NCBI GenBank assembly: GCA_937944885.1 | Contig: CALFBB010000050.1 | Location: forward strand, 1 to 39,978 | Direction: 5' to 3' | Origin: an uncultured cyanobacterium | Lineage (GTDB): Bacteria > Cyanobacteriota > Cyanobacteriia > Thermostichales > Thermostichaceae | Length of the DNA: 39,978 bases | Shown here: one piece after another, positions 23,026 to 32,243 of the stretch | Position numbering within the stretch: the stretch's first letter is position 1 | How the letters are laid out: each line of letters begins with the position of its first letter | Made by a program: the position numbers and the translations under genes | Notes under the pieces: generated by a model | What the model was told of the DNA's origin: nothing | Seen by the model: the letters and a program-made list of their open reading frames with translations, nothing else | The model's database searches: none

Positions 23026-23499
23026 ATGAGCCTGGTTGCCCAAGTTATTGCTCAGTCAGATGCTGCTGAACGCTTCCTCAGTAGTAGTGAGATCGCTAAG
23101 TTAGAAGATTTCTTTAGTAAAGGTCAAGTTCGAATTCGGACTGCTCAAAAGTTAGCAGATAATGAGCAGAAAATCGTTCAGGAAGGCAGCAAACGCTTTT
23201 GGGCAAAATGTCCCAACACTCCTAGCAACAAAGGAAATCCTCAGAAAACAGCCCTGTGCCAGCGGGATCAAGCCTGGTATATTCGTCTGATCAGCTACTG
23301 CGTTCTAGCGGGCAACGAAAAACCTTTAGATGATATTGGCTTGAATGGAATGCGTGAGATGTACCTCTCTCTGGGTGTACCTCTGCCAAATTTGCGGGTA
23401 GCGATGAGTTGTCTGAAGGATGTAGCTGCTGATGTGCTTTCTGCTGAGGAGATGGCTATGGCTGCTCCCTATTTTGATCGTCTCATCCGTGCTTTCTGA
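23026..23499 (+). CDS. apcD4: Allophycocyanin alpha-like subunit, ApcD4 type (low-light/far-red)
   Basis: From ATG 23026 the protein has 157 residues and a phycobiliprotein globin fold: SLVAQVIAQSDAAERFLSSSEI, then KTALCQRDQAWYIRLISYCV with bilin-site Cys78, then DDIGLNGMREMYLSLGVPL. The region before the cysteine is divergent from core ApcA/ApcD, which keep the ordinary antenna sequence; this points to a specialised paralogue. Followed by an ApcB-like gene and a CP43-like gene, it matches the apcD4-apcB3-isiX cassette reported for low-light-acclimating hot-spring Synechococcus, where ApcD4/ApcB3 make far-red-absorbing helical allophycocyanin. The frame is open to TTG 22978, but the family start fits ATG 23026. 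Confidence 0.85.
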   Translation: MSLVAQVIAQSDAAERFLSSSEIAKLEDFFSKGQVRIRTAQKLADNEQKIVQEGSKRFWAKCPNTPSNKGNPQKTALCQRDQAWYIRLISYCVLAGNEKPLDDIGLNGMREMYLSLGVPLPNLRVAMSCLKDVAADVLSAEEMAMAAPYFDRLIRAF

Positions 23500-23577: not shown

Positions 23578-24063
23578 ATGAAAGATACCATCACTTCCCT
23601 AATCAACCCTGCTGATGAGAGGGGTTCCTACCTAGACGCTTCAGCTTTGGATCAGCTGAACCGCTACTTTCAAAGCGGTAGTATGCGAGTCAAGGCAGCT
23701 AAGACCATCAGTTCCACTGCCAGCAGTATCATCAGCAAAACGGTGGCCAAGAGCTTGCTCTATGGAGATATCACGTTGCCCGGGGGCAATATGTACCCTA
23801 CCCGTCGTTATGCTGCCTGTTTGCGGGACTTAACCTATTTCTTGCGCTATGCCACCTATGCCATGTTGGCTGCCGATACTTCCATCCTCGACGAGCGGGT
23901 GTTGAATGGCCTTAAAGAAACCTACATCACACTAGGGGTTCCTATTGACCGGGTGATTGAGGCACTTAATGCGATGAAGGAGGTGCTGACGGAAAGTCTT
24001 GGAACTGATGCTGGTCAAGAGATGGGAGTATATCTAGACCACATCATTGCTGGTTTGAGCTGA
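23578..24063 (+). CDS. apcB3: Allophycocyanin beta-like subunit, ApcB3 type
   Basis: The 161-residue protein has normal ApcB length. It has [20 protein letters not shown] with Asn71 (the residue methylated in beta subunits) and bilin-attachment Cys81, and [23 protein letters not shown]. It should pair with the upstream ApcD4-like alpha subunit and carry phycocyanobilin. AAGGA lies just before ATG 23578. The gap from apcD4 is 78 bases, so both are probably on one transcript. No core linker genes (apcC, apcE) are nearby, which fits a separate ApcD4/ApcB3 assembly and not the ordinary phycobilisome core. Confidence 0.88.
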
Positions 24064-24334: not shown

Positions 24335-25741
24335 ATGAACGCCAAAACCATACACCCTTCAGGCTACCCCTGGTGGGCGGGCAATGCTCGATTTGTTGAC
24401 CTCTCCAATACTTTTATTGTGGCGCATGTGGCCCAAGCAGCCCTGATCATGGCCTGGGCGGGGGGGTTTACCTTGTTTGAACTGGCGAGGTTCTCACCTG
24501 ATTTGCCAATGTACGAGCAGGGGCTAATTTTGCTGCCTCATCTGGCTACATTGGGATGGGGAGTTGGTGCTGCCGGCCAAATTGTTGATACTTTCCCCTT
24601 CTTTGGGATTGGCTGTATTCATCTTGTGGCGGCTGGAGTACTAGCTTGGGGGGCTTATTTTCACCAAACAAAGCTGCCTGCCAACTTGGACATGGAGTTT
24701 GGCAAAGCTGCTAAGTTTCACTTTAGCTGGAATGATGCTAAGACGTTGGGTGTTATTTTGGGACATCACCTCTTGGTCTTGGGTTTGGCAGCCTTCCTGT
24801 TGGTAACCAAGGCAATGTTTTTCGGAGGTCTATACGATGCCACGATAGGTCAGGTGAGGCTGGTCAGTCAGCCCACGCTGGACTTTGCCACCCTTCTTGA
24901 CTATCGCACCCATCTTTTTGATGTCGATAACTTGGAAGACTTGGTGGGAGGGCATGTATATGTAGCAACTCTGCTTATTTTGGGAGGAATATGGCATATT
25001 GCGGTACCCCCCTTTGGTTGGGTTCAGGCTCGCTTTTTGTTCAATGCTGATGGGATTCTGAGTTACTCCCTGTTTGGAATTGCCCTGGCTGGTTTTGCTG
25101 CCTCTTACTACTGTGGATTCAACGATCTAGCTTATCCAGAGGTCTTTTATGGGCCAACTTTGCAGTTAAAGTCTGCTTTCACACCTTTCTATTTTGATCC
25201 CACCCAAACAGAGGCGGGGGCCTATTCATCCCGAGTCTGGTTGGCCAACGCACATTTCTATTTGGCTTTCTTTTTCCTACAGGGATCCCTGTGGCATTTT
25301 CAGCGAGCTATGGGCTTTGACTGGTCTAAGCTTTTTCAAGCTTGGCAGCAGGGTTGGCAGGAGGCGGGCTTATCTGAGTTTGTTTATCAGACAGTAGTGG
25401 AGATCCATTCCCGGGCTATGCCTGAGATTGACTATGAGCCGGCCTTTGCAACTCCGGCCTCTCTGGTTCCTAAGAAAGATGAAAACCATATCTATCAGCC
25501 ACCTCAGAGCAACGCCACCCCTTCTTTAACTCTACTGAATGGTGTGCGAAATACTCTTTATCAAGTTACCTATCATCTCAATCGCAACCTGTTTTATCAG
25601 GTGCCGACCTCTTCTTCTGATTTCAAGAAAACACCACTACAGGTGGAATATGGATCCCCAAAGGCAAAAATCAATTCTGGAGAATGCTTTCGGTCTTTGC
25701 CTACCACTATTTATGAACCCAGTAGGGCTCAGCTAAGCTAG
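24335..25741 (+). CDS. isiX: CP43-like chlorophyll-binding antenna protein IsiX, with C-terminal extension
   Basis: The 468-residue protein belongs to the IsiA/Pcb/CP43 family: about six membrane helices in residues 1-330 with helix histidines in [56 protein letters not shown] and [17 protein letters not shown] that can ligate chlorophyll. The loop before helix 6 is short, so it lacks the large CP43 loop and is an antenna, not a PSII core protein. Residues about 335-468 form a polar C-terminal extension not found in ordinary IsiA (about 340 residues). Its position after apcD4-apcB3 supports IsiX. ATG 24335 has AAGGA 7 bases upstream; GTG 24332 is adjacent. Confidence 0.85.
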
Positions 25742-30831: not shown

Positions 30832-31133
30832 AGGAGAAGCAAGCCACCAAGGCCATCCTACCACCAACTTTTCAGATTCTGGCTGGGTTCACTCGGAGTA
30901 AGAGATTTTGATGCTCTCCCCCCAACCCTAACGGGTAGGGTCGGAGATCCCTGTTTCACAGACCCTTAACTCGATTGGGTTACCCCAACCCCCGTGAGAC
31001 CGTCTCCGCAGGCATTGTAGAAAAAATTGCGCTCAAGAGTAACCCACGTCGGTTCTGCCCAGCCTTTCGGAGATTGGCCGAGTCCGTTACAACAGAAGCA
31101 AAGCCCTGTATGCTCCTCACTTGGAGACAAGAT

Positions 31134-32243
31134 ATGCTTCTGGTTTCCTCTCTGGGTCGTTTGCTTCCCCTATTGGGGTTTCTGAGTGTGGGGTGGATGG
31201 CGGCGGCGGCTCCTAGCCAAGCGCAACCCTTTCAAGCCGGGGATCTGGATGGGGATGGCCGTTTGACTGTACAGGATCTCAACCTGTTGGGCGCCTATTT
31301 ACGCGGGGAACGGAGCCTAACAGACGACCAGATTCGTGCAGCCGATGTCAATCAAGATGGCCGCATCACAGAAGCCGATTGGCTCTTGTTGCAGCAGCGC
31401 ATTCAGGTGGCAATAGATGCTCCTACCGGCCAGGTGCGCTTAGACTCTGCCTATTCTGGCCAGGTGGTGGATCGCCTAACGGGACAACCCTTAGCCGGTG
31501 TAGAAGTAGCTATTCCTGGAGCCGGCATTTCGGTGCGCACCGATGCTCAGGGGCGTTTCCGCTTGCCCGGCCCTGTACCTGCTGAAGAAATCTTGGTAGC
31601 CCGCCTAGAAAACTACTTGCCTTACTCCCAAAGCACCGGCAGTGGCCAAGCCACCGGGGATCAACCTCTGCAACTGCAGCTAGAGCGCTGGGATCCAAAC
31701 ACCACCTTTGTTTTGGAAGCTAATGTTATTCGTCTGGGAGACAACCAATATTCACCGGAATCGGCTGCTGCCGGCCAATTTTTGGCCCCGGCCAAAGGGG
31801 TGGATCTCACCCGCTCCTTTACTCTGCAGCAAATGCCCCCCCGCCCGCCCATTCTGCGGATTGGATCCCTCATCGGGCTGGATACTGCCGCAGCCTATCA
31901 AGCCGGTCAATCCCGGATTCCGAGCGCCAATATGTCGCCTATGCAGGTGATCCTCAATGGAGTCGAGGTGGCGCAAATTCACTTAGGTGGAGACAACCTG
32001 CGGATTCCCTTGCCTCTTGACCATCTCCGCCTCGGCCTGAATACAGTTACCCTGCGTACCGGTAAAACAGTGGTTCACCCTGTCGCCCGGGGCGGGCCGC
32101 AGGTACCCGTTAGAATTCCTCTACTGGGGGGATCCCTACAAATTTCTGTACCCGTGGGGAGTAGCGGGAGGTCATCAGGAGGTGCTTGGGTGGACTATGA
32201 CGATGTGCAGCTAGCCAATGTAACCATCGAGATTCCCAATTGA
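31134..32243 (+). CDS. Secreted protein with dockerin-like EF-hand pair and carboxypeptidase-regulatory-like domain
   Basis: From ATG 31134 (GGAGA six bases upstream) the protein has 369 residues. The N-terminus is a signal peptide ending near AAAAPSQAQ. Two calcium-loop repeats follow, DLDGDGRLTVQDLNLL and DVNQDGRITEADWLLL, spaced as in type I dockerins. Next is a beta-sandwich of the CarboxypepD_reg type (GQVVDRLTGQPLAGVEVAIPGAG, then VRTDAQGRFRLPG), and a C-terminal beta-rich region. It is probably periplasmic or outer-surface and calcium-binding. No cohesin partner is visible here. Starts at 31110 and 30975 are in frame but less supported. Confidence 0.75.
   Translation: MLLVSSLGRLLPLLGFLSVGWMAAAAPSQAQPFQAGDLDGDGRLTVQDLNLLGAYLRGERSLTDDQIRAADVNQDGRITEADWLLLQQRIQVAIDAPTGQVRLDSAYSGQVVDRLTGQPLAGVEVAIPGAGISVRTDAQGRFRLPGPVPAEEILVARLENYLPYSQSTGSGQATGDQPLQLQLERWDPNTTFVLEANVIRLGDNQYSPESAAAGQFLAPAKGVDLTRSFTLQQMPPRPPILRIGSLIGLDTAAAYQAGQSRIPSANMSPMQVILNGVEVAQIHLGGDNLRIPLPLDHLRLGLNTVTLRTGKTVVHPVARGGPQVPVRIPLLGGSLQISVPVGSSGRSSGGAWVDYDDVQLANVTIEIPN

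Follow-up and report, generated by a model that had tools for sequence, protein, structure and literature searches.

IsiX of an uncultured cyanobacterium carries a conserved disordered tail of tyrosine motifs that likely tethers far-red allophycocyanin nanotubes

Introduction

The chlorophyll antenna protein IsiX encoded in the DNA analysed here (the window; 39,978 nucleotides of an uncultured cyanobacterium) ends in a long C-terminal tail, which is predicted to be disordered and in which short tyrosine motifs are conserved at spread-out positions. We consider it probable that this tail is a conserved, disordered and multivalent linker: its motifs would bind one ApcD4-ApcB3 protomer of far-red allophycocyanin (FRL-AP) after another and tether the resulting tube to the membrane by means of IsiX.

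The extension itself and the idea that it tethers the nanotube are already known. IsiX was named by Olsen 2015 (PMC4477158), who put the length of the extension at nearly 100 residues and credited it with ‘probably one additional transmembrane helix’, and Gisriel 2023 (PMC10038336) gave its length as 127 residues. According to the text of the latter paper, earlier work found FRL-AP to be membrane-associated and to co-purify with IsiX, and low-light induction of IsiX and FRL-AP co-purification have been published for strain A1463 (PMC10038336). FRL-AP has been solved as a helical nanotube, in which seven protomers turn through 720 degrees and advance 72.6 Å, and it makes tubes in vitro without IsiX; it was proposed that the extension threads the ApcD4-ApcB3 nanotube as a ruler, while wrapping around the outside was left possible (PMC10038336). 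How the nanotubes are attached to the photosystem and what limits their length are questions left by this discovery paper that can now be tested, and the tyrosine array, the natural length variants and an antenna-less variant described below open the published ruler model to direct tests. These tyrosine repeats, length variants and the antenna-less form seem to be absent from the texts of PMC4477158 and PMC10038336, and a supplementary alignment of the latter may already show the tyrosines. If the proposal is true, the tail would represent a type of linker that has no relationship to the folded linker domains of phycobilisomes.

The isiX gene, its cluster and its antenna domain

The isiX gene (24335..25741, + strand; 468 aa, stop at 25741) starts with an ATG at 24335, with a GTG three bases upstream of it, and is the third gene of apcD4-apcB3-isiX. 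The first gene, apcD4 (23026..23499, + strand), encodes the far-red allophycocyanin alpha subunit: it is recognized by the ApcD4 profile, and its by far top match among solved structures is 8ddy_A (318 bits), an allophycocyanin alpha subunit that we take to be that of the nanotube. The second, apcB3 (23578..24063, + strand), encodes the beta subunit, with a phycobilisome domain scoring below the ApcB cut-off and the ApcB3-specific residues T4 and P11, which are published helix-forming changes. With isiX directly downstream of both, the gene order is that of the low-light photoacclimation (LoLiP) cluster, and 24335-25741 is the isiX of such a cluster. Judging from this cluster, the DNA belongs to a thermophilic, Synechococcus-like cyanobacterium of low-light type (Thermostichus group). 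The GAF photoreceptor gene that is reported beside the cluster in the A4/A14 strains was found nowhere on the window's contig (1-39978); it is likewise missing beside the LoLiP cluster of H. hongdechloris, and its adjacency therefore does not define IsiX. Elsewhere in the window (30975-32243), a secreted-looking protein combines a dockerin type I repeat with a carboxypeptidase-regulatory-like domain, which is unusual in a cyanobacterium.

Residues 1-337 (24335..25345, + strand) form an IsiA/Pcb-type six-helix chlorophyll antenna, as assigned with TIGR03041, AlphaFold2 and Foldseek. The NCBIfam model TIGR03041 matches residues 13-330 with 398 bits, and no Pfam or NCBIfam model matched IsiX beyond this region. 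A Foldseek search with the antenna model returned as top matches IsiA chains in photosystem I (PSI) complexes (TM ~0.9 by target, 58-60% identity). The AlphaFold2 input was an alignment of 31 IsiX sequences, which is shallow, yet the antenna was well predicted from this same alignment.

A C-terminal tail predicted to be disordered

In a preliminary description of this DNA, the sixth helix was said to end near residue 328 and to be followed by about 130 extra residues, and both estimates agree with our results. The AlphaFold2 model places the sixth helix at residues 299-325 and a short helix at 330-346, and IsiA of the same genome (L020) aligns to IsiX only through residue 337 and then ends. 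As IsiA stops at 337 and the last modelled helix ends by 346, the extension measures ~125-130 residues, the protein running to 468. A structure prediction had been proposed as a check, and AlphaFold2 leaves the region from residue ~346 to 468 unstructured, with a pLDDT of ~30. We delimit the disordered tail, with its seven tyrosine sites, as residues 347-468 (25373..25738, + strand); it is conserved in 31 orthologues. Disorder without contacts had been regarded beforehand as an argument against the proposal; disorder is indeed predicted, for the protein alone, yet within the disordered region the sequence follows a strong pattern and is conserved.

Both tail segments quoted in the preliminary description (PLQVEYGSP and one other) are present, and its statement that the extension is not a PsaL domain holds, with no Pfam or NCBIfam match and no membrane helix in the tail. 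The likeness to CpcD-like strands is not supported: a CpcD match was found neither in the window tail, even at E<=10, nor in any of 24 tails, and hhalign of the tail against 20 CpcD domains gave a probability of 0.1%. The phycobilisome linker domains PF01383 and PF00427 likewise had no match in the IsiX tail, and the PDB held no solved relative of it, a single KRAS match at E=1 being due to chance. An extra membrane helix was considered and rejected, as the 19-residue hydropathy maximum (0.37 in the window tail, 0.97 in any tail) is too low. Lacking a membrane helix, the tail therefore stays on the cytoplasmic side, where the phycobiliproteins are, a placement that rests on the topology of CP43 and IsiA.

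Tyrosine motifs and their conservation

One scan of the genome contigs yielded 29 loci, of which 26 encode an intact tail-bearing IsiX, one is frameshifted (L065) and the other two (L067, L069) encode antenna proteins that lack the tail. The 26 intact loci, the window and four more sequences make up an alignment of 31 full-length IsiX, with 43-85% identity to the window IsiX. The preliminary description had allowed for the extension being missing or unconserved among orthologues; the tail is present in all 31. Its identity to the window tail is low (~15-37%), and the sole invariant columns beyond W337 are Y351, Q352, Y367, Y387, L408, Y409, Y421 and Y439. Tyrosine thus accounts for six of the eight (hypergeometric P 1.4e-7), and Y413 and Y460 are conserved in at least 90% of the 31 proteins. 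Given its presence in every full-length orthologue compared, with six invariant tyrosine columns, the tail is not a product of chance.

Seven motifs, all on the + strand, follow each other along the window tail: FVYQT (25379..25393; Y351 and Q352 invariant), IDYEP (25427..25441; Y367 invariant), HIYQP (25487..25501; Y387 invariant), NTLYQVTY (25550..25573; L408 and Y409 invariant, Q410 and Y413 in at least 90%), LFYQVP (25589..25606; Y421 invariant, F420 in at least 90%), VEYGSP (25643..25660; Y439 invariant) and TIYEP (25706..25720; Y460 in at least 90%). Along the tail, short aromatic motifs that approximate [F/L/V/I]-Y-[Q/E/G]-x-P thus recur in series, with enrichment around the tyrosines of F, L or V at -1, of Q, E or G at +1 and of P at +2 and +3. 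In 39 unique tails, the pattern [FLVIMC]-Y-[QEG] is found 183 times, compared with 17.5 +/- 4.2 times after shuffling, and the window tail contains it five times, compared with 0.33 (P 5e-5).

The motifs are also well spaced. Gaps in the window tail are 16, 20, 22, 12, 18 and 21 residues, and the probability that seven positions drawn at random from 128 residues all lie 12 or more residues from each other is 0.005. When tyrosines less than 7 residues apart are merged into one site, the window tail has seven sites and its relatives have 6-13, mostly seven in thermophile and Gloeomargarita types and 9-10 elsewhere. In three Chlorogloeopsis/Gloeocapsopsis-type loci (L063, L068 and L100), isiX and apcD4-apcB3 are arranged divergently, and the tails have diverged (YEFSY repeats) with the tyrosine spacing kept.

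Natural variants

Tail length varies by more than one route. In genome G511 (L144 1772-3412), a 58-residue tail module with four motifs is present in tandem duplicate, which brings the tail to 13 sites; the frame of 547 codons is uninterrupted and lies on a contig of 2.7 Mb. The L046/G433 tail has been lengthened differently, to 12 sites.

In genome G070 (L143 2607-3140, contig C73), the whole membrane antenna has been deleted in frame, leaving a 178-codon frame in which the N-terminal 28 residues are fused straight to the tail, directly downstream of intact apcD4-apcB3. This tail retains every invariant tyrosine, and its dN/dS is 0.22 against L051 and 0.25 against L053, the value for L051 against L053 being 0.24. 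The antenna remnant has other residues in place of G16 and N17, which are invariant in the 31 intact IsiX; this speaks against an assembly error. Relocation of the antenna was considered, and the candidate fragment on contig C76 proved to be a broken IsiA, not IsiX. The isiA gene of G070 is also broken (L103 1534-2067), as if CP43-type accessory antennas were being lost there; for this reason recent decay is possible, and the antenna deletion may be young.

Co-occurrence with apcD4-apcB3

Among 388 genomes of the class, the tail profile has matches in 33 and the ApcD4 profile in 32, and 31 have both. One tail match (G519) is a chance hit to a low-complexity stretch of a DnaX-like protein. G610 has the tail without apcD4; its tail is that of L058, where isiX lies 607 bases from the contig end and apcB3 is cut off there. 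Conversely, G615 has apcD4 without the tail, and its contig ends 578 bases from apcD4, in the direction in which isiX would be expected. Both one-sided genomes are explained by contig ends. At the named loci, apcB3 is near isiX in every tail-bearing case, as is apcD4 except at the contig-end locus L058, and the tail-less antenna loci L067 and L069 have neither gene. As the genes share an operon and the genomes are related, this co-occurrence is confounded and shows linkage, not contact. Within the 388 genomes, no tail was found outside IsiX besides the antenna-less form of G070 and the chance match in G519; two weak matches from a single-sequence tail search (G306, G136) are stop-ridden or not beside any antenna, and were discarded as chance. 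In the frameshifted L065 (MAG Leptolyngbyaceae M65_K2018_010), isiX is disrupted after ~110 codons with apcD4 and apcB3 present, and the frameshift may be an assembly error, the contig being of low coverage.

Proposed mechanism and alternatives

The preliminary description had suggested that the extension could tether the antenna to ApcD4/ApcB3. The tether has also been published as a hypothesis (PMC10038336), and both the co-occurrence and the antenna-less G070 form agree with it; a tail tethering the nanotube to the membrane is likely, and only the likeness to CpcD lacks support. In the mechanism that we propose, the tail would exit the cytoplasmic face of the IsiA-type chlorophyll antenna, and its seven spread-out tyrosine motifs would each dock in the corresponding site of one ApcD4-ApcB3 protomer after the next. 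The tail would most likely run through the interior of the nanotube, on the side of the beta bilins. The far-red tube would thereby be held to the membrane beside IsiX, and through IsiX to PSI, and the tail may in addition set the length of the tube. Motif binding to FRL-AP, the lumenal position, the pairing of one motif with one protomer and length control are what we infer for this system. In ordinary phycobilisomes, linker domains line the cavity with evenly distributed Tyr and Phe residues, next to the bilins (PMC8448738), and the beta-bilin face that is open in FRL-AP is one of those covered by linkers in toroids (PMC11614940). The residues conserved specifically in ApcB3 are T4, P11, K39, G63, P74, L82, F88, Q147 and H155; judging only from their positions in the sequence near the bilin region, G63, P74 and F88 are candidates for a docking site.

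The spacing of the motifs was compared with the geometry of the published helix, assuming a lumen wall radius of 10-20 Å. Under this assumption, neighbouring protomers are 19-33 Å apart on the lumen wall and protomers about one turn apart 32-45 Å, and motif gaps of 9-24 residues correspond to 31-84 Å when fully extended. Practically all gaps are long enough to span the distance to the next protomer, and the shortest is too short for the protomer one turn up; one motif per neighbouring protomer thus best fits all of them. Most tails would then carry 7-10 protomers, suggestively near the 10-13 of recombinant tubes made without IsiX. The tail contour (~430 Å) far exceeds the length of a 13-protomer tube (~135 Å), so the tail cannot be a simple taut ruler. 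More tentatively, we raise the possibility of a new class of phycobiliprotein linker, in which each motif docks one protomer beside a beta bilin, the motif count (seven in the window, 9-10 in most relatives and 12-13 after duplications) sets the tube length, and the cassette evolves by module duplication and is separable from the antenna.

A multivalent, disordered array of motifs could also bind the outside of the nanotube, which its discoverers kept possible (PMC10038336), or cluster several FRL-AP oligomers as a sticker-and-spacer scaffold on the principle of EPYC1 and CsoS2. We regard this as rather unlikely, as phycobilisome linkers sit within the cavity and, by analogy, would favour the inside. 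Less probable still is an action of the tail on PSI or on IsiX-IsiX contacts with no direct role for FRL-AP: the antenna is IsiA-like, IsiA binds PSI and the AlphaFold2 model contains no contact partner, but IsiA binds PSI without any such tail, the G070 tail persists without an antenna beside intact apcD4-apcB3, and the antenna proteins without a tail come without apcD4/apcB3. That the tail is a poorly constrained appendage of no specific function, as its low identity and predicted disorder might suggest, is scarcely credible, since the invariant spaced tyrosines of 31 orthologues argue strongly against it, as do motif enrichment far above shuffles, a dN/dS of ~0.2 and module duplication.

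Comparison with known systems

The window isiX shares its gene order, antenna, extension and proposed role with IsiX of Synechococcus (Thermostichus) sp. A1463 and relatives (PMC4477158, PMC10038336), whereas the extra membrane helix suggested in the 2015 report (PMC4477158) is not supported in the tails analysed here. IsiA has the same antenna fold and 58-60% identity to IsiX, but ends soon after the sixth helix and adjoins isiB, whereas IsiX has the tail and adjoins apcD4-apcB3. Pcb/IsiA-PsaL fusions (e.g. L022 of a sister species, 550 aa) likewise combine a CP43-type antenna with a long C-terminal extension, but their alignment with IsiX ends at about residue 346, and their extension is presumably a PsaL-type membrane domain. 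Phycobilisome linkers (PF00427, PF01383; CpcL, which links rods to PSI) share the role proposed here, namely holding stacked phycobiliproteins and presenting them to a photosystem; they are folded domains, whereas the IsiX tail has no sequence or profile similarity to them. EPYC1 and CsoS2 are disordered chains of short similar motifs that organize many copies of a partner. Their partner is Rubisco and their motifs are unrelated to those of IsiX, so that the likeness is one of analogy only. According to the alignment, the motif statistics and the AlphaFold2 model, the IsiX tail is likewise a chain predicted to be disordered, in which conserved short motifs recur, and by this analogy it would work like a disordered multivalent linker, each motif binding one copy of its partner.
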